Source: Hyphomonadaceae bacterium (GTDB lineage Bacteria; Pseudomonadota; Alphaproteobacteria; Caulobacterales; Maricaulaceae). From it: a DNA stretch of 48,314 nucleotides. The translations under genes and the position numbers were made by a program. The notes under the pieces are model-generated. The model worked only from the letters and a program-made list of their open reading frames with translations, was not told where the DNA came from and searched no databases. The stretch is from contig JACOMS010000008.1 in the NCBI GenBank assembly GCA_014324115.1, positions 1,119 to 49,432 of the forward strand, given 5' to 3'. Shown here in pieces: positions 8,544-48,219 of this stretch. The number at the start of each line of letters is the position of its first letter. Position 1 is the stretch's first letter.

Positions 8544-8742
8544 TTTTTCCGCTCCGCCATTGTCTTGTCTAGCTTCCGCGTACAGACAAAACAATCAAAG
8601 GATAAAACGGGACAGGTCATGACCGGCTGCCGGTTTCTCGACAAATATCGTTTACATCAGCCGAGATGTTGGTCAGCATAGACAGTTGTGTAGTTTTTGC
8701 GCGCCAACTTCGGCAAACAGCTCGGATCAGGAGGAAAGTAAA

Positions 8743-11364
8743 ATGCCAGGACCAAAATTATCACTCATTAGGACGGCAAGTATTTTGCCAGTTCTGGCGC
8801 TTGGCCTGGCCCCTGCCCATGCGCAGAACCCATCCTCACCAGAGCGGGAAATTGAAGAAGATATCATTGAGGTGACAGGCATTCGAGCCAGTTTGGCTTC
8901 CGCACTGGATACGAAACGCAAGGCAGACGCGGTTATTGAGGCAGTGAATGCTGAGGATATCGGCAAGTTTCCGGACAAGAACATTGCTGAATCACTGCAG
9001 AGGGTTACGGGCGTTTCCATTGATCGCACTTTTGGTGAGGGTGAGAGAGTCTCAATCCGCGGTTCCGGGCCGGAACTGAACAGAATCCTGCTGAATGGGC
9101 AAAATATCGGCACCGGTGATTGGCAGATCCTGGGTGGTGGCTCAAGGTCATTCAACTATGCGATCCTCGCATCGGAAATTGTAGAACGTCTTGAAGTTTA
9201 CAAAACACCGCAGGCAAATATCGACGAGGGTGCTATCGGTGGTACTGTCGTTTTACACACCCGCGATCCTTTGGATCTCGACAACATGACCATTACAGGC
9301 AATCTTCAGATAGGCTATAGTGATCTGGCCGATGAAGTCGACCCGCAGCTTTCAGGTTTGTTCAGCTGGAAAAACAGGCACGAAACATTCGGTTTTCTGG
9401 TGTCCGGTGTCTGGCAGGATCGATCCATCCGTCGCGACGGTATTGAGGTCCTCGGCTACAGATCGTTTCCACCAACAACGGGTGACGATATATTGCCGTT
9501 TGCGATTGGGTCTGCACTCTTTCAGCAGGAGCGTCAGCGTCGTGGCTTTAATGCAGTGATTCAGTATCAGCCAAACGACAACATTGATATGAGGCTGCAT
9601 GGCCTTTACTCCAGAGTGGATGCCGATAACCGGAGCCACAACTATCTGGCCGTCCCTAGATGGAAACAAATTGATCGTCATCAGGAAGGCCATCCCATGG
9701 CAGGCTCCCTGATCGACCCCCCCACCGATGTGACCCGTGATGACGGGATCGTCACCCGGGCCACTTTCACGCAGCCGACCCGTTACATCGCTTTCGATGG
9801 TATTACGCGTGAGTCGGAAATGGAGACAAAGTTGATCGACCTGGATGTCGACTATGAGGGCGAAAGCTCAGACCTGCATTTCCAGATCGGCTACACGGAA
9901 GGATCAGGCGGTACAAGCCGGGACCTGTTCATTGAGTATATCGGGAACACTGGCGGTAGGTTTGATATTTCAGGTGCTGCGCCGACGGTGTCTTTTGATA
10001 CTGTTGACCCGACAGACCCGGCTGATCTCACTTCCATTGGCGGATTCCATGTCAATAGCCGGACCACAACTGATGAAGAGTTTTACACCCAGCTCGATTA
10101 TACGAAGCGCCTGGATCTTGGGGCACTCAATTCGATTCAGTTTGGTCTGAAGTACCGCGATCAGGAAAAAGCCCAGCAGGCGAGGGGTACCAGCCGTGCA
10201 AGTGTAGATGACATTTTCAAAAACCCGAATGGAATTTACAGTTTCGCTAATCGGGTGGGCGGCAATACACCGGGTGACTTCCTTGACGGCATTTCCATTA
10301 GTGGTAGCCTTGACGCTTATCCGCTGATTGATCTCGATTCCTTTGAAAACGAAGTTGGGAACATGATGCCAACGGATTTCCTTGATCCGCGTAATTCCTG
10401 GACCATTCAGGAAAAAATTCTGGCCGGTTATGGAATGGCAAATTTCGAAACCGGCAATCTGCGCGGGAATCTGGGTGTTAGGGTTGTCTACACGGATAGC
10501 TCTGCTGAATCCTATTTCTTTACCGGAAGCTGGTTTGACCCGGAGGATATCGAATTGATCTCACAAGATAGCACCCGAACGGACGTCCTGCCCAGTTCCA
10601 ACATCACGTTTGATTTAAGTAACGATATGATATTGCGCTTTGCTGCCGCACGCGCAATGGCTAGGGCGGAGTTCTCGCGACTTGCTCCTTCCCTGACGGT
10701 AAATAATGCCACCCTTACCGGTACCGGAGGCAATCCGGATCTCGAACCTCAATTCTCCATTCAGTTTGATTTCAGCTGGGAATGGTATTTTAATGAGGGC
10801 GCATTGTTTTCGGCAGGGGTTTTCTACAAGGACATTGAGGGCTATCTTGACTTTGTGACGACAACCGAGGAGATTTCGAGCGAGGCATGCGCGACCGATG
10901 TTTGCAGATACGAGGTGACACGACCGATCAATGCCGGCAGCGGCACCAACAAGGGCATTGAAACAAACTTCCAGCAAAACTTCGATAACGGGTTGGGTTT
11001 TGTCGTCAACTATACCTTCTCGGATGCAAACGCACCGGAAGATGCGCCGATTCCGTTTAATTCCAAGCACAGCTTCAATCTTATCGGTTTTTATGAAAAC
11101 GATACTTTTTCAGCTCGTGTCGGCTACAACTGGCGGAGTAAATACTTCGAAAATATAAACCGCGGTGCCGAACTCCAGACAGACGATATTGGTCAACTGG
11201 ATGCAAGCTTTGCATATAACATTGGGGACAATATACAGCTTACTTTGGAAGCGCAGAACCTCACCGACGAGTTGCTTTACAAGTTCGGTCGCGCAGAACG
11301 CTTCCCGCGTGCATACTATAAAAATGGGCGTCGGGTGTTTGCGGGTGTTCGTGTTAATTTCTAG
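8743..11364 (+). CDS. TonB-dependent receptor, TonB_Xanth-Caul type (receptor 2)
   Basis: RBS before ATG 8743; EEDIIEVTGIRASLASALDTKR, NAEDIGKFPDKNIAESLQRVTGVSI, C-terminal VRVNF. Confidence 0.93.
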   Translation: MPGPKLSLIRTASILPVLALGLAPAHAQNPSSPEREIEEDIIEVTGIRASLASALDTKRKADAVIEAVNAEDIGKFPDKNIAESLQRVTGVSIDRTFGEGERVSIRGSGPELNRILLNGQNIGTGDWQILGGGSRSFNYAILASEIVERLEVYKTPQANIDEGAIGGTVVLHTRDPLDLDNMTITGNLQIGYSDLADEVDPQLSGLFSWKNRHETFGFLVSGVWQDRSIRRDGIEVLGYRSFPPTTGDDILPFAIGSALFQQERQRRGFNAVIQYQPNDNIDMRLHGLYSRVDADNRSHNYLAVPRWKQIDRHQEGHPMAGSLIDPPTDVTRDDGIVTRATFTQPTRYIAFDGITRESEMETKLIDLDVDYEGESSDLHFQIGYTEGSGGTSRDLFIEYIGNTGGRFDISGAAPTVSFDTVDPTDPADLTSIGGFHVNSRTTTDEEFYTQLDYTKRLDLGALNSIQFGLKYRDQEKAQQARGTSRASVDDIFKNPNGIYSFANRVGGNTPGDFLDGISISGSLDAYPLIDLDSFENEVGNMMPTDFLDPRNSWTIQEKILAGYGMANFETGNLRGNLGVRVVYTDSSAESYFFTGSWFDPEDIELISQDSTRTDVLPSSNITFDLSNDMILRFAAARAMARAEFSRLAPSLTVNNATLTGTGGNPDLEPQFSIQFDFSWEWYFNEGALFSAGVFYKDIEGYLDFVTTTEEISSEACATDVCRYEVTRPINAGSGTNKGIETNFQQNFDNGLGFVVNYTFSDANAPEDAPIPFNSKHSFNLIGFYENDTFSARVGYNWRSKYFENINRGAELQTDDIGQLDASFAYNIGDNIQLTLEAQNLTDELLYKFGRAERFPRAYYKNGRRVFAGVRVNF

Positions 11365-16944: not shown

Positions 16945-17150
16945 TCGGGAAATGTCGCCCATATGTCACGTTCGGCGGTGGCTGCGGGTTGCGTAACAGG
17001 CACTTATCCCGGGGACCATGGATCATCCTTGGGAGCTGGCTCTATCCGGATCGTGGTCCGGTTAATTCCGGTGCCCACCTGTAGCAACAGGTTCACGGGG
17101 ATTTGCAAGCCTCCACGGACCATGTGGTCATCGTCACAGGCGTGTGTTGG
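16945..17150 (+). ncRNA. ssrS: Probable 6S RNA (boundaries approximate)
   Basis: Non-coding gap directly after zapA; hairpins CCGGATCGTGGTCCGG within CTGG...CCGG and ACCTGTAGCAACAGGT, with a complementary outer stem (GGGTTGCG / TGCAAGCC); zapA-6S synteny is known in Proteobacteria. Confidence 0.6.
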
Positions 17151-32344: not shown

Positions 32345-35179
32345 CTATTTTGGGGGGCGTGCGCTGTGTGGGCGCCGTCGCGTCTTCGCAGGCTTGGCCA
32401 GGAGCGGGTCCGTCATGTTTTCATACTGCCGGAACAGATGCTCCACGCGGTCGCGTTCGGATTTGAACGCGGTCCTGCGGTAGAGCCGGTCCACCGCCCG
32501 GTCATTGTTCCGGTGGGCCTGGCGCAGATCGGCGGGCATGACATCCGGATCGTAAAGATCGGCCAGGCTGGCCTCAGGGTAGTTGGCCCGGGCGTCCAGG
32601 ATTGCCCGGGCGTGCGGTTCCAGCCCGGACAGATCGCTGACCGGCGGTGTCGGAAAGGTGTTGTAGACCATGCCGATGGAATATCGGTAGTCGCTCTTCA
32701 AGCGTCCCCCGAAGGTGCGCAGCCAGGCCATGTGCATGGCGGACTGGAGAAGCGCGAATTGCGCGGGTGTTGCATCAAGTGCGACAGTGACCGCATCGCT
32801 TGGAATAACCGGCGGTTCGACAAGACCGATGGCCGCATAATCGCGCCGTTCCGAAGTCACACGCGGTACTACCAGAAACGGCGCGTCCGGGATCACGGTC
32901 ACATGAAATGCTGTCGGAGTTTCGGCCAGAGCCAGAGACGACCGACCCGGTGTCTTGATCCTGCCCTGGTCTTTCCCCTTGGCCGGTATCCTGCCCAGAC
33001 GATATTCCCGCACCTGCCCCACTATGGCCTTTGTCAGCGGCATCGCGCGAAAATCCTGTGGCGGTATCAGCGAAGCGCAGAGAATATACCGGTTGCCCCC
33101 GTTCAGAAATTCACGCGCTCCGATGTAGGGGCGCAGGTAGGGTGCGGCTTGAGGTTCCCGGGCCAGGAAAGCTTCTCGCTCCTTGCCGGAAAAGATAAAG
33201 TGCCCGCCGTCGATGGGTTTCGATCCGATGATGAGTTTGGGCAGGCCGTTGGTCGGCCTGCCGGTTTCCTTCACCACCACATGCGGATTGGCCAGGGTGT
33301 CGGCGGCGATCAGGTACGGTGAGATGGCCTTGTGCCCGGTCTCCACGGGATCGCCCCTGATGTCGGGATAGCTGAACAGGCCCCGGGTCCCGCGGGCGTC
33401 GGCGCGGGGTTCCAGACCCAGCACGACCACGTGCACCGCCGCCTTGCCGCGCGCCTCCGACCCCCAGGCGAATGTCCGGTGGGCAAATGCAATCTCGAAA
33501 CCGTACCGGTCAAACAGGATCGGCCAGAGCTGGGCCACCTGCTCCCCCTGAGTGATCGAATTTGTGGATACAAAAGCCGTCGGCACACCCAATGCAGCAG
33601 CCTTGATGAACCAGGCACACACATAATCCAGTGTTCCGCCGGACTTGCCCAGGGCGGCAATGTCCCGCACCTGCGCCCGCCGGTGTTCGGACTGGAATTT
33701 GGCTCCCGCAAACGGCGGGTTGCCGATGATGTAGCTCAGGTCTTTGGGCGCAACAGCGGCCCAATCGGTTTCCAGCGCGTCGGCATGTACGATGTTCGGG
33801 GATTTTTGCAGCGGTATCCGCAGGAAGGGGGCGCCGAACTCAAGGCTGGCCTGGGTGTTCATGATATGATCCATCATCCACATTGCGGTTTCCGCAATCC
33901 GGACCGGAAACTCGGAAAACTCGATCCCGTAGAACCGGTCCACATCCAGCTTGAGCAGGGATTGCAGGGGCAGCTCTGTCGCCCCGCCTTTCATGCGTGC
34001 CAGGTCGTCCCGGTAAATTTCCCGCAGTACCCCGATTTCCAGAAGTCGCAGTTCCCGGTAGGTGATAATCAGGAAATTACCGCAGCCGCAGGCCGGGTCG
34101 AGGAATGTCAGAGCGGCCAGTTTTTCATGGAAAGCAGACAACAGTTTCACGCGGTTCTGTTTTCGGCTTTTCAGAGCTTCGAATTCAGACCGTAAATCAT
34201 CCAGAAACAACGGTCCGATCACCTTGAGAATGTTCTTTTCCGTGGTGTAATGCGCCCCCGCCCTGCGCCGTTCTTCCCTGTCCATGACAGACTGAAACAG
34301 TGAGCCAAAGATGGCAGGCGAGATACCGGACCAGTTAAAACGACCGGCTTCGATTAACGCGTCCCGCATGTCCGGATCGAACGCCGGTATCCGGATCGAA
34401 TCCTTGAACAGATCGCCGTTTACATAGGGAAAGCGGGCCAGGTCTGCGTCCAGATTCGACTGGCGCTCCTGTTCGGGGGTGTCCAGCACCTCAAACAGCT
34501 GGGCAATCATCGGCCCGGTGTCAGAGCCGTCTTCGCGCGTGCGTGTCTCCAGATATTCCAGAAATATATCGCGAGGTTCGAAAATGCCGGTATCATCGGC
34601 AAAAAGGCAGAACACCAGGCGCGTTAAAAACACCTCAAGCCGGTGGCCCCTGTATCCGCTTGCCTCCAGTGAATCATGCAGGCGCCCTACCAGTTCGGAC
34701 GCCTCAATGTTTACAGGGTCCTGGTCCTTGAAGCTCCGCTTTTCCATCCCCATGATGAAGCCGAATTTCTCGATATGATCGGGCAGATCTGTCAGGGCGA
34801 ATGTCGTTTTTTCGCGCGTGTCCCGGTCAAGCAGCTCGAATGTCTGGAAGTCGCAGAGCAGCTGGAAACGGGGACGCTCGCTCTCTTTCAGGGCGTCGAA
34901 GTATTCCCCGGCCTGGTCGGCTGCTTTGGCCAGATCGCGCCCTGCCGATTTCTGTTCCACCAGGAGCACGCGGGGCCAGAACAGATCAATGAAGCCGGAT
35001 GTGTTGTTTAGCTTGCGGACGTGTTCTTCGTAGCGGGCCACAGACCGGCGCTCGACACCGAAAATCCTGAAAAAGTCATTGTAGAAGGTTTGGGTTTCGC
35101 CCTTTTCGTAGGCGGCATCGGCATAGTCCTGCGCGAACGTGGCAGCCCGGGTGCGAATTTCGTTAAAACTCAGACGCAA
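32345..35179 (-). CDS. MmeI-like (type IIL) fused restriction endonuclease / DNA methyltransferase
   Basis: N-terminal GFIDLFWPRVLLVEQKSAGRDL (D..ExK-like), AHYTTEKNILKVIGPLFLDDL, LDPACGCGNFLIITYREL (motif I), YIIGNPPFAGAKF (motif IV). Confidence 0.88.
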   Translation of the reverse strand: MRLSFNEIRTRAATFAQDYADAAYEKGETQTFYNDFFRIFGVERRSVARYEEHVRKLNNTSGFIDLFWPRVLLVEQKSAGRDLAKAADQAGEYFDALKESERPRFQLLCDFQTFELLDRDTREKTTFALTDLPDHIEKFGFIMGMEKRSFKDQDPVNIEASELVGRLHDSLEASGYRGHRLEVFLTRLVFCLFADDTGIFEPRDIFLEYLETRTREDGSDTGPMIAQLFEVLDTPEQERQSNLDADLARFPYVNGDLFKDSIRIPAFDPDMRDALIEAGRFNWSGISPAIFGSLFQSVMDREERRRAGAHYTTEKNILKVIGPLFLDDLRSEFEALKSRKQNRVKLLSAFHEKLAALTFLDPACGCGNFLIITYRELRLLEIGVLREIYRDDLARMKGGATELPLQSLLKLDVDRFYGIEFSEFPVRIAETAMWMMDHIMNTQASLEFGAPFLRIPLQKSPNIVHADALETDWAAVAPKDLSYIIGNPPFAGAKFQSEHRRAQVRDIAALGKSGGTLDYVCAWFIKAAALGVPTAFVSTNSITQGEQVAQLWPILFDRYGFEIAFAHRTFAWGSEARGKAAVHVVVLGLEPRADARGTRGLFSYPDIRGDPVETGHKAISPYLIAADTLANPHVVVKETGRPTNGLPKLIIGSKPIDGGHFIFSGKEREAFLAREPQAAPYLRPYIGAREFLNGGNRYILCASLIPPQDFRAMPLTKAIVGQVREYRLGRIPAKGKDQGRIKTPGRSSLALAETPTAFHVTVIPDAPFLVVPRVTSERRDYAAIGLVEPPVIPSDAVTVALDATPAQFALLQSAMHMAWLRTFGGRLKSDYRYSIGMVYNTFPTPPVSDLSGLEPHARAILDARANYPEASLADLYDPDVMPADLRQAHRNNDRAVDRLYRRTAFKSERDRVEHLFRQYENMTDPLLAKPAKTRRRPHSARPPK

Positions 35180-35327: not shown

Positions 35328-36878
35328 TTACCCGGGTACTGCCCCTGGAACGGACGATGGACGACGTGTGTTGCCCGATACGGTGACAGCGAATGAAACA
35401 AGGGTCGCGACACAGAGCTTCCATGAAAATGCAAGCGATGTATAACTTTCGGGAATCCCGAGACCGCCGCCAATGCTCCGCTCACCGAGGCACATAACAA
35501 CAAAACCGGCAATCAGACCGCCCACAACAGAGCCTGTACTGCCGCGGTTTGTGAAGAAAACAGTCCCGTAGACGCCGAGGAGACCGGCATAGGCAAATGT
35601 CATGACCGCCAGGGCAAATTCCAGGAGCGGAGAGTCGGATGATTTTTGCCAGAAATAACAAAGGCATGACATGAGGAACAGAACAGTCGCAAACCCGAAC
35701 ATGGCGAACTGGCCGACCATGACATAATGGCGTTCCGGTTTTTCATCAGTCATCGGGCGGTAAAAATCACTCACGGCGACCGCGGCCATGGAATTAAGAC
35801 CCGAGTTCAAGGTTGATACAGCGGCCGCGATTACGCCTGTTACCGCAAGGCCGCGAATGCCGGACGGCAATTCATCAAGGATATACCGCATAAAGACAGT
35901 CGTGCCTTCCAGCTCCAAATCAACCGTTTCCCGACCCGTCACCTCCGGTCGTTCGTAAAATATGTGAAGAAGCTGGCCGATGGAGAGGAATACGAATGTC
36001 AGCGGAATTGCAAGAACGGTGGCGATCACGATTGCTCTGCCGGCCCGTTGAGGGCTGCCGGCGGCGAGCAATCGCTGGGTTGTATCCTGGTCCAGACCGT
36101 AACTTCCGATCGACAACAATGCAACGCCGGTGAAAATGGAAAGCATCGTGAACGGATTTGTCAGGTCGAGGGAGAAGTCAAACACGACCAGCTTGTCCTG
36201 CCCGTCCGGAGCGTTTCGCGCCGCTGTCAGGAGATCGGACAGCGGCAGATTGAGAACCTGATACAGACCGATCAAAATAAAAATCGCTGTGCCGACATAA
36301 ACAGCGAACTGCAGGGCGTCACTGGCCACGACGGATCGAAGGCCGCCTACAAATGTAAACGCCAGGGCAATGAAGGTAATGAACAGGGAAGACAGCGCCA
36401 CACTGATAAAGTGTGTGTTTGAGAACACAATCAGGGCGACAGCCAGCGCCGCCATAAACAGCCTCGCCCCGTTCGCAAACACCCGGCCCAAAAGATACAT
36501 GGCACCGGCGGAACGCATCGCCGTGGGTCCGAAGGCCTTATTGAGCAAATCATATACAGTCATCACCCCGGCGGCATAAAATCTGGGCAGCAGGACACAG
36601 GCTGCAACGATGGCCGCCAGAATTGAACCCAGATTGCCTGCCAGGTAGGTGTAGTCTTTCCGAAAGCCGAAATCCGGTCCCCCGAGAAATGTTGCCGCCG
36701 ACTGGGTCGTTGCCAATACGGAAAAAACAATCAGCACCACCGGAAAACCGTTCCTTGACAGGAAAAAATCTTTCGAAGACCGGGCGGACCTTTGGGACAA
36801 CATGACACCGAGGGCCGATACGACAGCGAAATATCCGCCGAGTACAGACCAGTCAAGTATTGAAAAATTCAAGTGCAT
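35328..36878 (-). CDS. Sodium:solute symporter (SSS) family transporter
   Basis: LGGYFAVVSALGVMLSQRSARSSKDFFLSRNGFPVVLIVFSVLATTQSAATFLGGPDFGF; about 13 hydrophobic segments. Confidence 0.9.
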   Translation of the reverse strand: MHLNFSILDWSVLGGYFAVVSALGVMLSQRSARSSKDFFLSRNGFPVVLIVFSVLATTQSAATFLGGPDFGFRKDYTYLAGNLGSILAAIVAACVLLPRFYAAGVMTVYDLLNKAFGPTAMRSAGAMYLLGRVFANGARLFMAALAVALIVFSNTHFISVALSSLFITFIALAFTFVGGLRSVVASDALQFAVYVGTAIFILIGLYQVLNLPLSDLLTAARNAPDGQDKLVVFDFSLDLTNPFTMLSIFTGVALLSIGSYGLDQDTTQRLLAAGSPQRAGRAIVIATVLAIPLTFVFLSIGQLLHIFYERPEVTGRETVDLELEGTTVFMRYILDELPSGIRGLAVTGVIAAAVSTLNSGLNSMAAVAVSDFYRPMTDEKPERHYVMVGQFAMFGFATVLFLMSCLCYFWQKSSDSPLLEFALAVMTFAYAGLLGVYGTVFFTNRGSTGSVVGGLIAGFVVMCLGERSIGGGLGIPESYTSLAFSWKLCVATLVSFAVTVSGNTRRPSSVPGAVPG

Positions 36879-36979
36879 TCCTCCCAAGCATCAGCGGTTG
36901 CCAACCCGACAGGGCTGGCGCCTGCTGCTATCTGCTTTGTTATTCTGGATCAACCGGATTTGTGTTTCCCCTTCCGGAA

Positions 36980-37864
36980 TTATCGGATCGGTTGAGTGTG
37001 ATCAATGCCTGCCAGCAACAGCGCCCCGTCCAAACCGTCCCCGGCCGCTTTAACCAGTTTTCGGGTCGTGCGTTCCCGCAGCCATGGGATCATCCGGTGC
37101 GAGACGCCGCCAACCAGCGCACATCGCTGTGCGCCCCTGGCAAAAATTGCCTCAATGAAACGCTCAACATGTTTTGCCGCGTCCTCAACGATAGATCGTG
37201 CAATCTCGTCATCCTGCTCGGCGAAATCAAGGACCAAGGGTGCAAACGAACCGTAATCGTATGGAGTCGCCCTGTCCATCCAGGCGACCGCCTGGGCGGT
37301 GTCATGATCAAACCGTTCGGAAATGGCCGCACTCAGGGGAGTCGCCCTGGTACGTCCGTCAAGAGCGCGCAAAGCGTGGCGCACTCCGCTTAACCCCAGA
37401 GCTGCCCCGCTGCCCTCGTCGGAAATCGGAAATCCATACCCGCCGATTGTCACGGATGTCGCGCCGTTCTGTATGTGTGCGATGCTGCCTGTGCCTAAAA
37501 TGAGAATAGCGCCGTCACGTCTTCCGTGTGCGCCCAGACAGGCGACGGCCGCATCGGTGGCGAAAGCGCGACAATCAAACGGGAATGTCAGCCCCTGAAC
37601 CGCGGCATACATGTTCGGGCGCGTTATGCCTGCTATCCCCATCCCCACCGCAAGTCCGGAAAAATGCCCGGGCGGAATTCCCGCCTCTGACAGGGCTTTT
37701 TCCGCTATATCCGTGAATGCAGTCCGGAGCCGCTCAAGACCGATTCGGGCATTCGCCGGTCCGGATTCAACCTCCGCCAGCACCCGGCGCTTCCTGTCTA
37801 CTAGTCTGGCTTTGCATCGACTTCCCCCCGCATCGATCCCCAGATAGAATTGAGCTTCATTCAT
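36980..37864 (-). CDS. BadF/BadG-type N-acetylhexosamine kinase (GlcNAc/MurNAc kinase-like)
   Basis: YLGIDAGGSRCKARLVD, GMGIAGITRPN, ILILGTGSIAHI, GGYGFPISDEGSGAALG, CALVGGVSHRM. Confidence 0.85.
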   Translation of the reverse strand: MNEAQFYLGIDAGGSRCKARLVDRKRRVLAEVESGPANARIGLERLRTAFTDIAEKALSEAGIPPGHFSGLAVGMGIAGITRPNMYAAVQGLTFPFDCRAFATDAAVACLGAHGRRDGAILILGTGSIAHIQNGATSVTIGGYGFPISDEGSGAALGLSGVRHALRALDGRTRATPLSAAISERFDHDTAQAVAWMDRATPYDYGSFAPLVLDFAEQDDEIARSIVEDAAKHVERFIEAIFARGAQRCALVGGVSHRMIPWLRERTTRKLVKAAGDGLDGALLLAGIDHTQPIR

Positions 37865-38123
37865 GCCCATCGCCTGTTTTGAAAAATTCCGGTCGATACA
37901 CACCCGATACCGACCAATACAAAACCAATTCGATCCGTTTACTGCAAACCGGACAGAAAAACCAGCCGCCATGTTCGGAATATATGACTGTTCCCGCCCG
38001 ATTATGTGTATTAAACTGGTGCAACCATACGGGGCTCATGGGCGGTTACGCATCCCGCGTACCGACCGGACCCTGTGACAACAGGGGAGTCGCCGGAACC
38101 CTGATGAAAGGAAAAGAAGCTCA

Positions 38124-39332
38124 ATGATAATGTTCGGGCTGGATCGGTTATTGACAGAAAGGGAGCTGCGTAAACCTCTGCAAAACCGGCGCGTGGCTGT
38201 TTTGGCTCATCCTGCATCTGTTACCCGCAGCCTCGGCCATGGACTCGACGCACTTGCCACAATCGGCGATATCAATCTGACCTCTGCGTTTGGGCCGCAA
38301 CATGGCCTCAAGGGAGATAAACAGGATAATATGGTCGAGTCTTCCGACCATGAAGATCCGGTATACAGTATTCCTGTCTTCAGTCTGTACGGCGATGTAA
38401 GGCGACCCACCGACGAGATGATGGATACGTTCGATGTCCTGCTTGTTGATCTGCAGGATCTCGGATGTCGCATATACACATTTATCACCACACTTCTCTA
38501 CATCCTGGAAGCGGCGGATAAACACAAAAAATCTGTCTGGGTTCTCGATCGCCCCAATCCCGCCGGACGACCTGTGGAAGGCATGTCTCTCAAGCCCGGA
38601 TGGGAAAGTTTTGTCGGGGCCGGGCCGATGCCGATGAGGCACGGCCTGACCATGGGCGAAATGGGGACGTGGTTTGTCGATCACTATGGGCTGGATGTTG
38701 ATTACCAGGTGATCGAAATGACGGGTTGGAACCCTGCCGCCACCCCCGGATATGGCTGGCCGTTACCGGAACGCAGCTGGGTCAATCCAAGCCCGAACGC
38801 CCCGACGGTGAACATGGCGAGAGTCTACGCCGGAACAGTGATGCTGGAAGGGACGACCCTGTCAGAAGGTCGCGGCACGACCAGGTCTCTGGAAGTTCTG
38901 GGAGCTCCGGACATCGACATCAGGAACATTCTGAACCTGATGGAGGAAATCGCGCCCCGGTGGACCACAGGATGCCGCCTGAGGGAGTGCTGGTTTGAGC
39001 CGACGTTCCACAAGCACCGGCACGCACTTTGCCGCGGCTTTCAAATTCATGCTGATGATCCGGGGAGCTATCAACATGATCGATTCAAGCCTTGGCGCCT
39101 CGTTGCGCTGGCCCTGCATGTGATTCGCAAACTCTATCCCGATTATGAAATCTGGCACGACAGTCCCTACGAGTATGAAAAGGACAAACTCGCCTTTGAT
39201 GTTATCAACGGCAGTGAGCACCTTCGAACGTGGATTGATGATCCGCAGGCCTCACCGGGTGATCTGGATGATATGACCGCGCCGGACGAAGAGGCGTGGC
39301 GTGATATACAGCAGAAATTTTCAATTTACTGA
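38124..39332 (+). CDS. DUF1343 / NamZ-like exo-beta-N-acetylmuramidase without evident signal peptide
   Basis: RVAVLAHPASVT, SAFGPQHGLKGDKQDNM, LVDLQDLGCRIYTFITTLLYILEAA, VLDRPNPAGRPVEG, MRHGLTMGEMG, TTLSEGRGTTRSLEVLGAPDID. Confidence 0.88.
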   Translation: MIMFGLDRLLTERELRKPLQNRRVAVLAHPASVTRSLGHGLDALATIGDINLTSAFGPQHGLKGDKQDNMVESSDHEDPVYSIPVFSLYGDVRRPTDEMMDTFDVLLVDLQDLGCRIYTFITTLLYILEAADKHKKSVWVLDRPNPAGRPVEGMSLKPGWESFVGAGPMPMRHGLTMGEMGTWFVDHYGLDVDYQVIEMTGWNPAATPGYGWPLPERSWVNPSPNAPTVNMARVYAGTVMLEGTTLSEGRGTTRSLEVLGAPDIDIRNILNLMEEIAPRWTTGCRLRECWFEPTFHKHRHALCRGFQIHADDPGSYQHDRFKPWRLVALALHVIRKLYPDYEIWHDSPYEYEKDKLAFDVINGSEHLRTWIDDPQASPGDLDDMTAPDEEAWRDIQQKFSIY

Positions 39333-39387
39333 TGGGGACGTAACGGGGAATAAGGCTGCCGCCTTGAAACAGGCCCGAAGGCAATGG

Positions 39388-41091
39388 TCAGTCGGCATAT
39401 TCCCGGCGTTTGGAATCCTTGCCGATTCCCGGATTGAACCGGTTTCCCGGGTCCAGGGATCGGTAATGGGCACAGAGCGGCGGTTCTGCCCTGTACAGGT
39501 GTCCGACATTGTGCTCGGCGGGATACCTGGCGCCTCTCTCCTCAAGACGATTCAGCATGGCTGTTTTTATTGCATGACTGTCGGTGCCGGTCTTCAAAAT
39601 GTAATCCTGATGAAAAATCTGGCACATAAAGTGACCGTAGTACAGCTTATGCTCAATGAGCTCCTCCAGGTCCGGCGGAAGCTCTTCCCGCCATTCTGTC
39701 GTATTTCGGGGAAGCGCGATATCCAGAGCCAGCAGGTCTCCAACCCTGGAGGCGTGTATGGTTTGGTAGCGAACAGCAGCCCCCGCCGCTGCAAAACGAT
39801 GAAGCCCGATGGTCCTAGCCTCCCCGTCCGGGCATACACGATATTGCAATTCGCCGCGACTCTTGAGTCGGGACAACACATTTGAGGTCTCTTCAATACT
39901 GTTGGTTTTTACTTTCAAAATCAGAAGATGTTCGTGACTGTCTGCGATCCTCCTCAGGTTTCGTGACAGGGGATCGGGCATGAGTCGGCCAACGACCTGC
40001 AGGCAATGATCAATAAACGCGCCTGAAAACATCGGCAGTTCCTCCAGTCGGGATGCAAGCGTTTCCTTGAATCTGAAGAATGCCGGGAGACGACGCGTTC
40101 CCAGAATCCTGATCAAATAAACCGTGTCACGGCCGTAGCGCCCGGTGAACACGAACGCGCACCTGTCCATATATTCTGCCGAAACCGGCAAATTGGAGAA
40201 CTCTGATAATATCGTCCGCCTTAATTCCGTGAGGACATGTGCATCCCTGGTGCCGATAAAAAAAGTCTTCCCGGAGGTATTTTTGGGGAATGTGTCTACC
40301 CGAACGCCGAAAACAGCCAGTTTTCCTGCGCAACCGGATGCGTCCTTGAGGCGTCGCGGATCCGCATTGTAGCGGGCGGGGGTCGGTGCATGAATGTCCC
40401 GAACCCATTCCCTGTACTCGTGATCTGAAGCCATGTTTTCGCCGTCTTCGAAGTTGGCCTCACGGAAGTTGCCGCTTTCCAGACGATGTAAAATTTCCCC
40501 GGGCGTTGAGCCCAAATCGACCCCCAAACGATTTTCAAGAATAAGGTCGCCCTCTTCGGTTAGTCTGGCAAATACGGCATGCTCTGTATACGCAGGACCG
40601 CGTTCGACGAGCGAACCGCCTGAATTGTTGCAAATCCCGCCGATGACCGAAGCTCCCAAACATGAAGACCCGATGACGGAATGCGGTTCCCTGCCCAACG
40701 GTTTGAGGATTTGCTCAAGTTTATGCAGAGTGCTGCCGGGCAGGCATATGGCCTGCCTGCCGCCGTCAACGAGATGGATTCCCGTCAGGCGACTGGTGCT
40801 GATAATAACAACATCATGTTCATACCCGGTATGAGGGGTTGAGCCGCCTGTCAATCCGGTATTGGCGGCCTGCATGATCATGCTGAGATCATATTGCACC
40901 GCGATCTCAAGAGTATGCCACATTTCCAGCAATGTCCCGGGACGTAGAACCGCAAGGCATTTTCCAGCGCTGCCGCGATAACCGGTCCGGTAGGTTTTTG
41001 TCCTGTGATGTCCTGTGAGGACATGCCTGCGGCCCAGGACAGACCGGAACGCCTCCACGACATGCGTCGTCCCATCATCGCGGCGTTTCAT
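39388..41091 (-). CDS. dld: FAD-linked (quinone-dependent) D-lactate dehydrogenase
   Basis: ANTGLTGGSTPHTGYEHDVVIISTSRL, GREPHSVIGSSCLGASVIGGICNNSGGSLVERGPAYTEHAVFA, ARYNADPRRLKDASGCAGKLAVFGVRVDTFP. Confidence 0.92.
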   Translation of the reverse strand: MKRRDDGTTHVVEAFRSVLGRRHVLTGHHRTKTYRTGYRGSAGKCLAVLRPGTLLEMWHTLEIAVQYDLSMIMQAANTGLTGGSTPHTGYEHDVVIISTSRLTGIHLVDGGRQAICLPGSTLHKLEQILKPLGREPHSVIGSSCLGASVIGGICNNSGGSLVERGPAYTEHAVFARLTEEGDLILENRLGVDLGSTPGEILHRLESGNFREANFEDGENMASDHEYREWVRDIHAPTPARYNADPRRLKDASGCAGKLAVFGVRVDTFPKNTSGKTFFIGTRDAHVLTELRRTILSEFSNLPVSAEYMDRCAFVFTGRYGRDTVYLIRILGTRRLPAFFRFKETLASRLEELPMFSGAFIDHCLQVVGRLMPDPLSRNLRRIADSHEHLLILKVKTNSIEETSNVLSRLKSRGELQYRVCPDGEARTIGLHRFAAAGAAVRYQTIHASRVGDLLALDIALPRNTTEWREELPPDLEELIEHKLYYGHFMCQIFHQDYILKTGTDSHAIKTAMLNRLEERGARYPAEHNVGHLYRAEPPLCAHYRSLDPGNRFNPGIGKDSKRREYAD

Positions 41092-41096
41092 GACGA

Positions 41097-41810
41097 TTAA
41101 CTGAGGTCGGACACAAACTCATAACGATCACCGCGATAGACTGATCGCGTAAACTCAACAACAGACCCGCTGATGGAACGGGTTGTCCGTTCTATTCGCA
41201 AAACTTCGCAGCCCTCATCTATCTGCAGCAGACCGGCTTCGGTCGGTGTTGCCAGAGACGCCCTGATTTTCTGACGCCCGCGAACGGGACGATGCCCCAA
41301 TCCGGCGAGGGCTTCATACAGCGAGTCTCCAACAGTCTCTATTTCAGGGAGAAACTGCCTGGGAAGGACTGCATTTTCAATCCCCAAAGGTTCGCCGTTT
41401 GAGAGACGTACGCGCCCCAATCTTGCAACTTCTGCGGCCATCGAAATTTCCAGCTGCGCGGCTTCGTCCGCAGTGGGATTTGAAGACGACCTGAATATCC
41501 AGAACGCACCGGGCTCATCGCCGCGCCTGATCGCATCATCAGTAAAGCTGCTTAGAAAGGAGGACTCCGATTGAATCCTCGCAGACACATAAGTTCCCGA
41601 CCCTTGCCTGCGATAAACCAGCCCTTCGGAAACCAGTTTGTCAACGGCCTTGCGTATGGTTACCCGTGACGCACCGGTCACCATCGTCAGCTCACGTTCA
41701 GGAGGCAAAGCCTCACCTTCGGCAATATCGCCGTCATGTATCCTTGAGCGGATATCATTGGCTATTCGCAAATAGAGGGGAGTCGGATCGTTCCTTGACA
41801 TGGGTTGCAT
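41097..41810 (-). CDS. GntR family transcriptional regulator (HutC/UTRA type)
   Basis: PLYLRIANDIRSRIHDGDIAEGEALPPERELTMVTGASRVTIRKAVDKLVSEGLVYRRQGSGTYV. Confidence 0.93.
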   Translation of the reverse strand: MQPMSRNDPTPLYLRIANDIRSRIHDGDIAEGEALPPERELTMVTGASRVTIRKAVDKLVSEGLVYRRQGSGTYVSARIQSESSFLSSFTDDAIRRGDEPGAFWIFRSSSNPTADEAAQLEISMAAEVARLGRVRLSNGEPLGIENAVLPRQFLPEIETVGDSLYEALAGLGHRPVRGRQKIRASLATPTEAGLLQIDEGCEVLRIERTTRSISGSVVEFTRSVYRGDRYEFVSDLS

Positions 41811-41815
41811 TGATT

Positions 41816-42700
41816 TTACCTCGCCAGTGTATCAATTGAGGCGCCCAGATGTCCCCGATTCTGCTCCAGTATAGCGGCAGCCCGGTTCTTCCCTATCCCA
41901 AGTCCGATCAAAACAGCTGTCGGTATATGGTCATTCGCTTCAATCAGCGCCTTATCCGCTTGCTCCATGGGTATACCCGAAATCATGCGTACGATCTCCG
42001 CGCCGCGACGGCGGAGCTTTTCATTGGAGACCAGCATATTGACCATCAGACCCTTATGGACCTTGCCTAGGCGCAGCATGATGGTTGTCGACAGGATATT
42101 CAATATCGCTTTTTGGGCCGTCCCGGCTTTCATACGTGTTGAACCGGCGATGATTTCACTGCCGGTATTCGCCACAAGACCGATTTCAGCCGCGTCGAGC
42201 AGGGGCGCGGCTTCGTTGTTGACGATACCCATCGTAAGTGCGCCTTTTCGACGCGCAGCTTCAAGAGCTGCAATCGTAAACGGGGTTTTACCGCTTGCAG
42301 CAACGCCGATAACGACATCATTTTCATCGACGTCCAGCTTTTCAATTTCGTTGGCCCCGGCATCCGTATCATCCTCGGCACCCTCAATACTCTCGACAAG
42401 GGCCCTCAGGCCCCCGGCCAGCACGTAGCCCAGCCGCGCCTTGGGCCATCCATAGGTGGGATGCAGCTCAATACCGTCCTGGGCCGCCACCCGACCGGAT
42501 GTTCCCGCTCCGACGTATACGAGGCGCCCGTGGTCTCCAAGGCGCTCTGCGGCCGCACTTGCGGCCGCAGCGATCAATGCCGACAAAGGCCTTATTGAGG
42601 CAATTGCAGAGAGCTGCCCTTCAATCATGGCATCCACGGCATCTTCGGTTGACCAGCTTTCAACATTGTCAAACCGTTTGCTCGCCACCTCTGTCGACAT
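41816..42700 (-). CDS. murQ: N-acetylmuramic acid 6-phosphate etherase
   Basis: GRLVYVGAGTSGRVAAQDGIELHPTYGWP, GVAASGKTPFTIAALEAAR, STRMKAGTAQKAILNILSTTIMLRLGKVHKGLMVNM; RBS AGGAGG before ATG 42700. Confidence 0.96.
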   Translation of the reverse strand: MSTEVASKRFDNVESWSTEDAVDAMIEGQLSAIASIRPLSALIAAAASAAAERLGDHGRLVYVGAGTSGRVAAQDGIELHPTYGWPKARLGYVLAGGLRALVESIEGAEDDTDAGANEIEKLDVDENDVVIGVAASGKTPFTIAALEAARRKGALTMGIVNNEAAPLLDAAEIGLVANTGSEIIAGSTRMKAGTAQKAILNILSTTIMLRLGKVHKGLMVNMLVSNEKLRRRGAEIVRMISGIPMEQADKALIEANDHIPTAVLIGLGIGKNRAAAILEQNRGHLGASIDTLAR

Positions 42701-42799
42701 CAATACCTCCTGAACTCCACCCGGGTCCCGTAGGTAGTTGGCAATCCCCCGAAAAGATACCAAAACAAAGCCACCGTGCCGCCCTGTATGCGACCCGAA

Positions 42800-44008
42800 T
42801 CAGCATGCGTACACATTACCGGCCCGGGCGGTCGGTGGTGTCTGCACGGTTTCGCCGACAGGGATGATAACCGATTCCTCGCCTTTTACCCAGCTTCTGT
42901 CCACGCCGCCCTCGTCGGTGATGTGAACGAGACCGGCCTGGCGACCTTCTGCAATGTCGCCTGTCTGATCCCCGAGTCCAATGGCTTGGGCGGGCCCGAG
43001 AGAGGCCATGAAAATGGCGTCGGCAAGAGAAACGCCCAAGTGCCCGTGGGCGTATCGAACGGCGGACATCATATCCAGGGAAGAACCCGCAAGATTGCCT
43101 GACTCTATGGTCAGTCGGGGACGGGTTGCATCGACCCATTCGCCGAATAAATCAAAACCGTCAAAACCGGCAGGAGCCCCGACGCTTGGCATGGCATCGG
43201 TGACAAGAATCGTTTTTTGCACACCCTTGCATTTAATGGCGGCACGAAGCGAAGCATCATGAACATGAAATCCATCCGCGATAACCCCTGCCCATGTATC
43301 ACCGGAATCGAGTGCGGCGCCGACGACCCCCGGTGCCCGACCGGTGAGAGGCGACATCGCGTTATAGAGGTGGGTAAAACCTGACAGCCCTTCTTGTATC
43401 GCTTGCAGTACCGTTTCATAATCGGCATTGGTGTGGCCTGCCCACACGACGACGCCGCGCTTGACGAGCTCCGCAATCTGGCCGGGCGCAGTTTTCTCGG
43501 GTGCCAGCGTTACCAGGGTTTTCCCGTTTTTCAGACCGGTGAGAACATCAATGAAATCGTCATCCAGATCCCGAAATCTTTTCGGGTCATGCACGCCCTT
43601 TTTTTCGACATTCAGCACCGGGCCTTCAATATGAATCCCCAGCACCCCGGGCACACCAAGGGAAATGGCTTCATCGACTGACAAGATGGTCCGGGCGATC
43701 ATCTCCGGCGTGTCACTGATCAATGTCGGCAGGAATCCGGTCGTGCCGAATGCGCGGTGCGCTTTGGCGATGGTTCCAATCGTCTCGACAGTCGGTGCGT
43801 CATTTAATAGAACGCCGCCGCCGCCATTCACCTGAAGGTCAATAAAGCCGGGTGCGAGATAGCCGCCATCAAGAAAGACTCTCTCCGCATCGTCCGGAAT
43901 CCTGTCCACAGCCACGATGTCCCTGATGACCCCGTTCCCGACCAGGACGGCCTTGTCTTTTTCCCAGTGCCCCTGCGCAAGTACCGGACACCCGAATAAC
44001 GCACGCAT
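42800..44008 (-). CDS. nagA: N-acetylglucosamine-6-phosphate deacetylase
   Basis: GYLAPGFIDLQVNGGGGVLLND, GIHIEGPVLNVEKKGVHDP, HLYNAMSPLTGRAPGVVGAAL, VTDAMPSVGAP. Confidence 0.96.
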   Translation of the reverse strand: MRALFGCPVLAQGHWEKDKAVLVGNGVIRDIVAVDRIPDDAERVFLDGGYLAPGFIDLQVNGGGGVLLNDAPTVETIGTIAKAHRAFGTTGFLPTLISDTPEMIARTILSVDEAISLGVPGVLGIHIEGPVLNVEKKGVHDPKRFRDLDDDFIDVLTGLKNGKTLVTLAPEKTAPGQIAELVKRGVVVWAGHTNADYETVLQAIQEGLSGFTHLYNAMSPLTGRAPGVVGAALDSGDTWAGVIADGFHVHDASLRAAIKCKGVQKTILVTDAMPSVGAPAGFDGFDLFGEWVDATRPRLTIESGNLAGSSLDMMSAVRYAHGHLGVSLADAIFMASLGPAQAIGLGDQTGDIAEGRQAGLVHITDEGGVDRSWVKGEESVIIPVGETVQTPPTARAGNVYAC

Positions 44009-45057
44009 CAAACCGTCACCGTCACTTTCTTCAAAAATGGCGGCCTGTCGGGGTTCCCGCCTCGCGCCAGGGACAACCCGTTGGCAAAACGGTAAAAACG
44101 CTGGATTTGCAAAACAGGAGTCAGGCGGGTATCGTCTCCGCGCGGGCACCCGAGACTCACTGCATCCGGTATGTCCCCGCCCACTGCCAGGCATTTTGCC
44201 CCTTTCGAAGAGCAAAACGAAACGAGATCATGAACACTCTGTCGCGACGCATCGGCCGCGACAAACGCCAGGATCGGGAATCCCCCGGATACAACAGCCA
44301 TCGGTCCGTGCCGCAGTTCCGCTGCACTGAAGGCTTCTGCATGCAGTCGGCTTGTTTCCTTGAGTTTCAGTGCGGCCTCCCTGGCGATACCGAAGCCAAC
44401 GCCGCGCCCGCAAACAAACAGGCTGCGTGCCGCCGTCAAAATCGGCATGGCCGCCGACCAGTCGTCTCCCTCCCAAGCCTGCTTCATGAATTCGGGCAGT
44501 TTGTCCAAAGCGTCCAGACCCTTGAAGTCCTTCCCCGCCCTGAAGGCAAGCCCGGCGAATGCCGTGAGCGAGCAAATAAAGGACTTGGTCGCAGCCACGC
44601 TTTGCTCTTCGCCGGCCATCAGGGGGATCGTAATATCACACAGGGCGGAAAGGGGATTTCCGGCCACATTGGTCATGGCAACGGTCAGTGCGCCCCCCGC
44701 CTTCGCCGCCTCGGCAGACTGCAATAAATCTTCGCTTCTACCCGACTGGGACACGGCCAGAAACACGGCCCGGCCAAGATTCAGCCTTGCCCCGTAAATG
44801 GAGGCCGCCGACGGTGAGAATGCCGCCACCGGTTTGCCGACAAGCCGCTCAATTAAACACTTCCCGTAAACTGTCGCGTGGCTGGAACTGCCTCTGGCAC
44901 AGGTTATGACCATATCGACCCGGTCGCCGGACAGGTGGCGGGCAACATCCTCAAGAACATCCGCGCTGCTCCTGGACTGGTCTGCGACCCGGTCGGGTGC
45001 TTCTCCAGCCTCGCGGAGCATTTGTGTTTCAGCATTCCGGGTAGATATGTCCTGCAT
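44008..45057 (-). CDS. SIS-domain glucosamine-6-phosphate deaminase, NagB-II type
   Basis: ITCARGSSSHATVYGKCLIE, AVSQSGRSEDLLQSAEAAK, EEQSVAATKSFICSL, FVCGRGVGFGIAREAALKLKETSRLHAEAFSAAELRHGPMAVV. Confidence 0.9.
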   Translation of the reverse strand: MQDISTRNAETQMLREAGEAPDRVADQSRSSADVLEDVARHLSGDRVDMVITCARGSSSHATVYGKCLIERLVGKPVAAFSPSAASIYGARLNLGRAVFLAVSQSGRSEDLLQSAEAAKAGGALTVAMTNVAGNPLSALCDITIPLMAGEEQSVAATKSFICSLTAFAGLAFRAGKDFKGLDALDKLPEFMKQAWEGDDWSAAMPILTAARSLFVCGRGVGFGIAREAALKLKETSRLHAEAFSAAELRHGPMAVVSGGFPILAFVAADASRQSVHDLVSFCSSKGAKCLAVGGDIPDAVSLGCPRGDDTRLTPVLQIQRFYRFANGLSLARGGNPDRPPFLKKVTVTV

Positions 45058-45300
45058 CGCCTTTCTTTCCCGAACCCGTTTCATCGAAAAACCATCGCAG
45101 GCGGGGGTTCATCCCGTCCGGTTTACCCTTATCACATTGGTCATGTATTTGTGCATTTAATTTAGTCAACCGACGTACCAGCCCTCACAATTTTGCGAGG
45201 TTCAGATGCCATGTTTGCCTTTCTCGAACCGGTTTGGCAATACCCGAATGCGATAATTACCCGATAAACAGGGTTCGTAATACCGTAAATTTTCACATTT

Positions 45301-45327
45301 ATGCCATTTTATGCCACGGATATGCCA
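45301..45327. repeat. Three ATGCCA direct repeats spaced 10-11 bp upstream of TonB receptor 3
   Basis: ATGCCATTTTATGCCACGGATATGCCA; a further ATGCCA at 45206. Confidence 0.45.
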
Positions 45328-45471
45328 TAGAAACGACACATTCGGCATGTAGCAAAAAATTATATCAGCCCTGTTGACCGGCCATAAAATTGATAGTACA
45401 TTGGTGAATGTGACAAATCGCGCAGTCATTAACACGTGTTTCGGCGAGCAATCAATCCAGGAGGAAACGAA

Positions 45472-48219
45472 ATGTTGAAATCAAGATCATCACTCATCAG
45501 GACGGCAAGTGTTTTGCCGGTTTTGGCGCTAGGCCTCTCCGCCCATGCGCAATCGGATCAATCTTCACCGGAGCAGGAAGTCGAGGAAGATATCATTGAA
45601 GTGACAGGCTTTCGCGCCTCACTTAAAAGGAATCTTGCCATCAAAAGGGATTCCGACACCATTGTCGATGCCATTTCGGCAGAGGACATCGGTCGGTTTC
45701 CGGACATCAATGTGGCCGATGCCCTGCAACGTATACCGGGTGTTCAGGTGGAAAAAGACGAACGAACCGGTGAAAGTGTCCGTGTCAGTATTCGCGGTAC
45801 GGCTCCTCACCTGAACCGCACCCTGTTGAACAATCAGCAGATTGCGTCAGCGACGTCCAGCAACAGGCTCGGGGAGCTTCGGGATCGCAGCTTCAACTAC
45901 TATCTGCTGCCGACAGAGCTGGTGGAAACACTGGAAGTTCACAAATCATCGGAAGCCAACATAGATGAGGGTTCCGTGGGCGGCACGGTGATTGTCAGAA
46001 CGGCCAGACCCTTGGACGCTGATGCCAACTCGGGGGCCGTTTCCGGCCGGTTGTACTACTTTGAGAACGCCGATACTTGGAGGCCGCATCTATCCGGTTT
46101 GTACAGTTGGAAGAATAATGCCGGAAAATTCGGCTTCAACGTAGCCTATGCGTACAAGGATAGCGCAACAGAGCTCAACGCCAAAAGAAATCTGGGAGGG
46201 TATCACAATCTACGAGACTTCGATGGTGACGGCACAACGGAACGGCCCCCGGTATTCCCCGGTGCCAACATTTTCACCAGCGATTACACCCTGTCCACCC
46301 CCTTCCTGACCCTGCAGCTTGCGCCGCACGACGGCCTGGACATAGTATTCACGGCATTGCATTCGATTCGGGAAAATGAATCCCAGGGTATTATTTCCTA
46401 CGGGTTCGGCAGTCTCGCCTCTATCCTTACCCCTGCCGATACCCGGGAACTTGAAATCAGGGACCGCACCGTGGTTGCAGGTCGTAACCTGTTTTGTTGT
46501 TCAGCGTTCCCGGGGAATGCAAGTCTCCAGGCTGCTCAATTCGGTTCAGGCGTATACCGGGGTTCATTTGAGACCACGGCCTTTGATATAAAGGCCACGC
46601 TGGAGCGAGAAACCTGGACGGCAGGTTTTCAGGTCGGTCACAGTTTTGCTGACGGGTATGCGGAAGACGTGGACACCGGATTCGGTGGTGGACCGACCAG
46701 TCTTGACTTTTTTCTATCTCCTGAAGGTGTCTACGAAGTAAAATTTGATGAGGATTTGACACCGGCTCATTACGCCTTCCGACGCACTCATTTCAACCAA
46801 ATCCGTAACGCATCCAATGAAACCTACCTGCAGGCCGATCTTGAATTCAACCTGGATAATAATTGGATCTCAAGCATTGAGACCGGTTTCAAGTATCGCG
46901 ACCACAACAAGTCTACAAACCTGCACAAACAGGACTTCAATGAAAACAGCAGATTGCTGGCTGACGGCACGGTGGAAGGTGTGAGCCTGGCCGATTTTGC
47001 CGGGGAGCCGATCACACGCTGGAAGGTCGGCGATACGCCATCCAATTTATGGCAATTCGACGTAGACAGAATCAGGCAATGGCAGGCCGAAAATCCCGTG
47101 GGGTCACATCCCGAAAACAATTCGTTTGACCACCTGGAGCACCGTTTCGAACTGAACGAAGAAATAGTCGCCGCCTACGTGAAAGCCAACTTCGAAACGG
47201 AGAACTTCCGCGGCAATGTGGGTGTGCGCGCGGTTCAGACCAAAACAACGTCAATGGTCAAACGATACCAGGGACCCGTCTGGAACCCGAGTGACGTAGA
47301 AGATGTTGAAGTCGTAAACGACTATACCGACATTTTACCCAGCATCAATATCAACTATGTTGGTCTTGATGATATCATTCTGCGGTTTTCGGCGGCAAAG
47401 GTAATTTCCCGCCCGAATTATGGTGCCGTAGCAGCCGTCGAGAATGGTATCTGCAGAGATATTGCTGCAGATCCCGGATATTCGTGTTCGGGCTTTGTAG
47501 GCAACCCGGAGCTGGAGCCCTTCAGCCTGACACAATACGATGTGTCCGCCGAGTGGTACATGAACAGTTCTTCACTCCTGGCGGTGGGTTTATTCCACAA
47601 GGATATCGAGTCCTACATCACTTCGGAAATCATTACGGCCACCCGGGAATATGTGCCGCCCATCTCCGAAGACGGGCCCCCTTCTGTGAGCGAACAGAGA
47701 CAGTTTGATCTGACGCGGCCCGTTAACGGCCTGGGCGGCACCATCCAGGGGTTCGAAATAAACCTGCAGCAGGAATTGCCCTATGGGTTCGGCGTGCTGG
47801 CCAACTACACTTACGCACATGCCGACCTGGAGGAAACGCCGGAACAGCTGGAGGCTGGTATGGAAGCGGTTCTACCTGACCATTCGGAAGATACCTTTAA
47901 CGCGACGGTATATTACGAAGATCACGGCTTGGACGCCCGTATATCCTACACCTTCCGTTCGGAGTACCCATATGAAGTGGGCGCCATCGGGCGCGGCCTG
48001 CTGAACGGCTACAAGGGTGACTACGGTTCGTTTGATTTTAATGCCACCTATGCCGTAACAGACGACATTGACCTGATATTCCAGGCTATCAACCTGACGG
48101 ACGAAGAAATAAACTGGTACGCAAGCAGGGAGGACGGGAGCGGACCGAATCTCAGCCGCTCATACGGACGATTTAACCATGGACGCCGACTTGCCCTCGG
48201 TTTGAACATGAGGTTCTAG
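45472..48219 (+). CDS. TonB-dependent receptor, TonB_Xanth-Caul type (receptor 3)
   Basis: RBS AGGAGG before ATG 45472; EEDIIEVTGFRASLKRNLAIKRDSDTIVDAISAEDIGRFPDINVADALQRIPGVQVE; C-terminal GLNMRF. Confidence 0.94.
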   Translation: MLKSRSSLIRTASVLPVLALGLSAHAQSDQSSPEQEVEEDIIEVTGFRASLKRNLAIKRDSDTIVDAISAEDIGRFPDINVADALQRIPGVQVEKDERTGESVRVSIRGTAPHLNRTLLNNQQIASATSSNRLGELRDRSFNYYLLPTELVETLEVHKSSEANIDEGSVGGTVIVRTARPLDADANSGAVSGRLYYFENADTWRPHLSGLYSWKNNAGKFGFNVAYAYKDSATELNAKRNLGGYHNLRDFDGDGTTERPPVFPGANIFTSDYTLSTPFLTLQLAPHDGLDIVFTALHSIRENESQGIISYGFGSLASILTPADTRELEIRDRTVVAGRNLFCCSAFPGNASLQAAQFGSGVYRGSFETTAFDIKATLERETWTAGFQVGHSFADGYAEDVDTGFGGGPTSLDFFLSPEGVYEVKFDEDLTPAHYAFRRTHFNQIRNASNETYLQADLEFNLDNNWISSIETGFKYRDHNKSTNLHKQDFNENSRLLADGTVEGVSLADFAGEPITRWKVGDTPSNLWQFDVDRIRQWQAENPVGSHPENNSFDHLEHRFELNEEIVAAYVKANFETENFRGNVGVRAVQTKTTSMVKRYQGPVWNPSDVEDVEVVNDYTDILPSININYVGLDDIILRFSAAKVISRPNYGAVAAVENGICRDIAADPGYSCSGFVGNPELEPFSLTQYDVSAEWYMNSSSLLAVGLFHKDIESYITSEIITATREYVPPISEDGPPSVSEQRQFDLTRPVNGLGGTIQGFEINLQQELPYGFGVLANYTYAHADLEETPEQLEAGMEAVLPDHSEDTFNATVYYEDHGLDARISYTFRSEYPYEVGAIGRGLLNGYKGDYGSFDFNATYAVTDDIDLIFQAINLTDEEINWYASREDGSGPNLSRSYGRFNHGRRLALGLNMRF

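Follow-up and report, generated by a model that had tools for sequence, protein, structure and literature searches.

A D-lactate dehydrogenase gene at the end of a murQ operon suggests respiratory use of muramic acid-derived lactate in a Hyphomonadaceae bacterium

Introduction

Why should an operon for the breakdown of cell-wall amino sugars end in the gene of a D-lactate dehydrogenase? The question is raised by positions 35328-48219 of a 48,314-nucleotide stretch of Hyphomonadaceae DNA (the window, by which we mean the whole stretch analysed), where the gene of an Escherichia coli-type, FAD-dependent D-lactate dehydrogenase (Dld) follows murQ, the gene of the N-acetylmuramic acid (MurNAc) 6-phosphate etherase, and that of a GntR/UTRA regulator. 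That MurQ releases D-lactate is long established. We consider it quite probable that the locus serves the catabolism of muramic acid scavenged from outside the cell, with Dld oxidising the D-lactate derived from MurQ. The weight of any gene absence is limited by the genome assembly, which comprises 2.3 Mb in 125 contigs and is about 90% complete.

According to the proposed pathway, a TonB-dependent receptor and a sodium symporter would import MurNAc or a small MurNAc-containing sugar, which a BadF-type kinase would convert to MurNAc-6-phosphate (MurNAc-6-P); the kinase would also form N-acetylglucosamine 6-phosphate (GlcNAc-6-P). MurQ would cleave MurNAc-6-P to give D-lactate and GlcNAc-6-P, the latter would be carried on to fructose-6-phosphate by NagA and NagB-II, and Dld would oxidise D-lactate to pyruvate and pass the electrons to quinone. 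A NamZ-like protein may cleave an imported disaccharide or have another role. From sequence we infer all of the activities, what the transporters carry, what induces the operon and what the NamZ-like protein does. The proposal that both halves of MurNAc are fuel can be tested directly through a one-gene deletion.

Results

The genes nagB-nagA-murQ-gntR-dld lie head to tail on the minus strand, with dld last. The ends of nagB and nagA overlap by a few bases, NagA likely beginning at an ATG at about 44008 that touches the end of nagB, and the following gaps are about 36, 5 and 5 nt. A pattern scan of the intergenic regions, which is a weak check, found no terminators between murQ, gntR and dld. 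The five genes are likely to form a single transcription unit.

The Dld protein scores 785 bits against NF008387, about twice the cut-off of 391, and its membrane-binding domain (PF09330, 368 bits) spans residues 276-565. It aligns over residues 16-565 with the structure 1f0x (E=9e-189) and is a full-length enzyme of the E. coli type. Few genomes of the order have such an enzyme (14 of 398), and the one in this operon is the only one that this genome holds. MurQ exceeds its family cut-off and keeps both conserved glutamates (in DGIELHPT and EGAED, by alignment to 4lzj), which, by residue counting, correspond to E83 and E114 of E. coli MurQ. For the linked processing of GlcNAc-6-P, NagA lies over its cut-off and NagB-II gives a strong match, yet one under the equivalog cut-off; the structural relatives of the latter (7kqa, 3hba, 8eol) are phosphosugar isomerases and NagB-II-type deaminases. 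The GntR/UTRA protein, probably a repressor that responds to an amino-sugar phosphate, has counterparts of 59-72% identity next to murQ in six other genomes (G363, G184, G278, G104, G139 and G199).

The order murQ-gntR-dld, in the same direction, is found in the window and in three further genomes, one from another genus of the same family (G363) and two from another family of the order (G184 and G278); the four genomes thus represent two families and three genera. Recurrent linkage of dld and murQ in relatives had been chosen beforehand as a test on which the first-pass annotation could fail, and the annotation passes it, as these three other genomes of the order show the linkage. Among 200 genomes of the order that were searched for both genes, MurQ and Dld occur together in only two and are linked in both. 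A sample of 349 genomes from the phylum contained 21 others with murQ and an E. coli-type dld, and none of the 21 has the two genes on one contig within 100 kb; these distances were compared by hand, and many of the assemblies are drafts in which murQ and dld fall on separate contigs. The adjacency of murQ and dld therefore cannot be put down to a general tendency of the two genes to occur in the same genomes. In a tree of Dld proteins, the four murQ-linked sequences form a group with SH-aLRT 94, separated from the majority of the order's other Dlds. They sit on long stem branches, and the tree program warns of long branches meeting; the enzymes have possibly evolved faster, or changed in specificity, once recruited. 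As a separate observation, a gene for a PP2C-like phosphatase lies beside a murQ-linked Dld or FAD-oxidase-type gene in four genomes (L034:10996-11979, L172:5542, L152:6455 and L159:6319).

Other murQ loci carry a different FAD dehydrogenase. Two genomes from the genus of G184 (G104 and G139) have a GlcD-type enzyme (PF01565 and PF02913) directly after gntR, in the slot of dld, with nagB, nagA and a NamZ-like gene (70-72% identical) nearby; each has another GlcD-type match on a different contig. A locus from another family of the class (L226) reads murQ-gntR-nagX, followed by a GlcD-type dehydrogenase gene on the opposite strand and then by nagB, nagA, a PF07555 beta-N-acetylglucosaminidase gene and anmK. 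Furthermore, five of the eight murQ loci examined in the family f36 encode a protein of 934-961 amino acids with FAD-oxidase, 4Fe-4S and CCG domains, the domains having been checked in two of the loci. Its gene stands directly after namZ (L282), one gene off (L284) or within about 6 kb (the other three). This protein scores far under the cut-off of the YdiJ 2-hydroxyglutarate model, and its architecture may resemble that of Shewanella Dld-II. Because three types of FAD dehydrogenase stand in murQ loci of different lineages, and the product common to these loci would be D-lactate, D-lactate as a common substrate appears to be the best explanation. It also seems very unlikely that the pairing of murQ and dld is an accident, since relatives carry the same or a substitute D-lactate enzyme in the same place. 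Taken with the MurQ glutamates and the full-length, sole Dld, the recurrent linkage and the three dehydrogenase types support the original suggestion that MurQ feeds NagA and NagB-II while Dld takes the D-lactate. Proximity of murQ and a FAD-oxidase-type gene in two further genomes (G102 and G008) was set aside as weak: both belong to the same genus, a nitroreductase-like gene lies between the two genes, and no nag genes are nearby. The anmK gene in L226 (15677-16819) lies within the murQ-gntR-nagX-dehydrogenase-nagB-nagA-glucosaminidase locus.

The kinase, whose start is likely about 33 residues downstream of the start of its open reading frame, has structural relatives in 1zc6 and in 8zo3, a MurNAc/GlcNAc kinase. 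According to the structural study of MurK, certain positions decide whether MurNAc fits, and human NagK, with the same small residues, is described as able to accept it (PMC10465942). Read from phmmer alignments, the kinase of the window has a threonine before the catalytic aspartate and Gly-Gly in the lactyl pocket, which would match the permissive pattern of that study. Relatives of the symporter with 41-47% identity occur in the murQ loci L168, L171, L223, L242, L243, L248, L249 and L282-L284; in L168 and L171, both from the order, the gene is directly upstream of murQ-gntR. Because its relatives accompany murQ in other genomes, the symporter is a good candidate for the inner-membrane carrier of MurNAc or a MurNAc disaccharide, and so a concrete one for a MurNAc transporter outside the phosphotransferase system (PTS). 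The TonB-dependent receptor is a candidate for outer-membrane uptake of muramic-sugar oligomers.

The remaining enzyme was at first described as a NamZ that releases terminal MurNAc, and this description is not supported. Both the NamZ_N and NamZ_C domains are present (PF07075 and PF20732), but the glutamate of the EHG motif is replaced by a glutamine, Gln59. Moreover, no signal peptide is visible, the frame permitting only 15 residues before the ATG, and the near orthologues (60-72% identity) likewise appear to have none by inspection rather than by a dedicated predictor. An exported exo-muramidase was rejected on both grounds. The protein is probably cytoplasmic, and it may work intracellularly, use a different substrate or not be a hydrolase at all. 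Glutamine occupies the EHG position in 15 of 15 members of a clade, whereas the other homologues (12 of 12) and the structures 4k05 and 4jja have glutamate there; some of the 12 also have no obvious signal peptide, so location alone does not account for the glutamine. The glutamate may correspond to Glu92, the proposed catalytic residue of the Bacteroides enzyme; chain position 68 of 4k05, by our count, would fit this if about 24 residues had been removed. The glutamine clade extends across several families of the class (L253-L263, L152, L155, L159 and the window) and into genomes in which MurQ was not detected in the samples searched (G002, G007, G482 and G521). Its genes often stand beside one for a protein of about 188 amino acids without a Pfam match and, in some genomes, beside one for a protein read as a tyrosyl-tRNA synthetase. 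It is conceivable, if doubtful, that the clade is cytoplasmic with changed chemistry and catalyses a different reaction, on a MurNAc disaccharide brought into the cell or on some other muramic compound, the intact disaccharide entering through the sodium symporter; we know of no such route for muramic sugars. The clade raises the question of whether the NamZ family, named for one activity, includes members that do another.

All nine genes listed for 35328-48219 in the first-pass annotation were found there, with family matches that agree (Table 1). Its "one block" comprises, by strand and orientation, about four transcription units. The receptor gene diverges from nagB, the namZ-like gene converges with dld, and the kinase and symporter genes form their own minus-strand pair, separate from the nagB-dld operon. 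The MmeI-type gene directly beyond the symporter marks one edge of the locus; on the other side, the contig and the window end together, 95 bp past the receptor gene.

Table 1. Genes of the muramic acid locus and its flanking gene, with positions in the window.
Feature	Position	Strand	Supporting matches
MmeI-type restriction-modification protein	32345-35179	-	all five MmeI Pfam domains
SSS-family sodium:solute symporter	35328..36887	-	PF00474 70.6 bits
BadF/BcrA-type amino-sugar kinase, NagK/MurK-like	36980..37972	-	PF01869; NF046058 243 bits (<370 cut-off)
NamZ-family protein	38124..39332	+	PF07075 239 bits, PF20732 135 bits; 4k05
Dld, E. coli-type FAD/quinone D-lactate dehydrogenase	39388..41091	-	NF008387, PF09330, 1f0x
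GntR/UTRA regulator	41097..41810	-	PF00392, PF07702
MurQ, MurNAc-6-P etherase	41816..42763	-	NF003915 315 bits (cut-off 168)
NagA, GlcNAc-6-P deacetylase	about 42800..44008	-	TIGR00221 299 bits (cut-off 225.65); PDB 3egj E=1e-80
NagB-II-type glucosamine-6-phosphate deaminase (SIS)	44008..45084	-	NF046059 274 bits (<430 cut-off), PF01380
TonB-dependent receptor (Xanthomonas/Caulobacter type)	45436..48219	+	TIGR01782 565 bits (cut-off 310); PF07715

Elsewhere in the window, two more large open reading frames on the plus strand read as TonB receptors (5586-8543 and 8686-11364), and the first of them clusters (c13) with receptor-like frames near the murQ loci L034, L152, L159, L168 and L171. A 6S RNA match at 16976-17134 on the plus strand barely exceeds its gathering score (50.3 vs 46.4 bits).

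Discussion

Respiratory oxidation of D-lactate derived from MurNAc appears to be the best reading of this operon. Several observations weigh against it. None of the 80 best relatives of Dld in an alignment-based scan of GTDB contigs is flanked by murQ, and therefore the pairing is confined to a few lineages. Other 2-hydroxyacids, such as glycolate and 2-hydroxyglutarate, are also possible substrates of GlcD-type and FAD/Fe-S dehydrogenases, which makes the argument from substitution indirect. NagB-II and the kinase score under the cut-offs curated for Shewanella enzymes (430 and 370), and the exact substrates of both are predictions. The NamZ-like protein deviates at an otherwise invariant residue. 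In addition, a search of the intergenic regions for an operator of the GntR regulator gave no dyads or shared words above the level of shuffled sequences, and it revealed no upstream motif common to the transcription units of the locus.

Three other explanations were weighed. The locus might mainly serve N-acetylglucosamine (GlcNAc) and chitin sugars, with MurQ and Dld as minor additions used when wall fragments also enter. The closest curated model of the kinase is indeed that of NagK (NF046058), and Caulobacter has a GlcNAc cluster in which, as in the window, a TonB receptor accompanies nagA and nagB, there serving GlcNAc uptake. However, MurQ, the NamZ-family protein and Dld would be useless for chitin, no chitinase or hexosaminidase is found among the genes of the locus, and the relatives of the symporter go with murQ itself, in L168, L171 and the f36 murQ-namZ operons; we consider this explanation unlikely. 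That the locus recycles turnover products of the cell's own wall instead of feeding on foreign wall is improbable as well. MurQ and NagA do serve recycling in E. coli, and a probably cytoplasmic NamZ-like protein would suit it, but an outer-membrane receptor is part of the locus. Furthermore, AnmK is absent from the genome, which argues for an external substrate and against the recycling of anhydroMurNAc from within, although at this completeness absence is no proof. Caulobacter crescentus, which is without MurQ, uses AnmK, AmgK and MurU, and relies on the PTS transporter NagE for uptake (PMC13046382). Such anabolic recycling is unsupported here, as AnmK is absent, MurQ is present, and one inspected APH match of two does not represent an AmgK-MurU pair. 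Finally, the presence of Dld in the operon by chance, or for environmental D-lactate independent of MurNAc, is highly improbable: although other Dlds of the order and the 80 close relatives are unlinked to murQ, the gene stands in an identical slot in four genomes from two families, lies 5 nt from gntR in the window, and is replaced in that slot by another FAD dehydrogenase in further genomes.

The operons murQP of E. coli and murQRP-amiE-nagZ-ybbC of Bacillus subtilis rely on the PTS protein MurP for uptake and phosphorylation and on the regulator MurR (PMC5061867). The MurQ step is common to them and the window, and the B. subtilis cluster also has namZ (ybbC). The window differs in its SSS symporter, separate BadF kinase, GntR/UTRA regulator, TonB receptor, nagA-nagB-II pair and dld, there being no D-lactate dehydrogenase in the E. 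coli and B. subtilis operons (PMC5061867). In Fidelibacter multiformis, a D-lactate dehydrogenase is described as oxidising the D-lactate from MurNAc-6-P to pyruvate, as a source of energy and carbon (PMC11652737). This is the fate of D-lactate that we propose for the locus in the window; the likeness to this anaerobe of another phylum is one of physiology. When Corynebacterium glutamicum was engineered to use MurNAc, MurQ yielded D-lactate, lactate accumulated, and the authors suggested raising Dld to keep D-lactate from building up (PMC6165865); the locus in the window resembles a natural counterpart of that measure.

Nearer relatives share the core of the locus. Clusters of murQ-BadF-gntR-nagB-nagA are widespread in the class (L210, L212, L213, L217-L220 and others); these alphaproteobacterial clusters have the same core enzymes and a regulator about 41-46% identical to that of the window, but no Dld-, FAD-oxidase-, SSS- or NamZ-like gene within about 8 kb of murQ. 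The locus in the window is this widespread core plus a receptor, a symporter, a NamZ-like gene and dld. The initial remark that no described locus with a receptor, symporter, NamZ and Dld combined in this way was known to its author overstated the novelty, given the symporter-kinase-murQ-namZ operons of f36 and the D-lactate oxidation described for Fidelibacter (PMC11652737). The physiology is not new; what is new, as far as the openly licensed literature shows, is the linkage at the operon level, together with the repeated substitution and the carrier. No D-lactate dehydrogenase is encoded in the murQ operons that this literature describes and that were compared here, whereas one is built into the murQ operon of the window, and different lineages have placed three kinds of FAD dehydrogenase in murQ loci.

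The f36 loci (L242, L248, L249, L282 and L284) resemble the window in combining a symporter with MurQ and NamZ, in most cases with a kinase and, in five of eight loci of the family, with a FAD dehydrogenase. They differ in an RpiR-type regulator, a secreted NamZ with the EHG motif, the enzyme of about 940 amino acids in place of Dld, genes for the breakdown of peptides and D-amino acids, and a fusion of MurQ and kinase in three of them. These five loci look like complete muropeptide degradation sets: besides the symporter, the secreted NamZ and the FAD/Fe-S dehydrogenase, they contain a VanX-like dipeptidase, an Amidase_2 protein, a 5-oxoprolinase subunit, and proteins resembling L-Ala-D/L-Glu epimerase and D-amino-acid transaminase. 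The MurQ-kinase fusions measure 615-626 amino acids.

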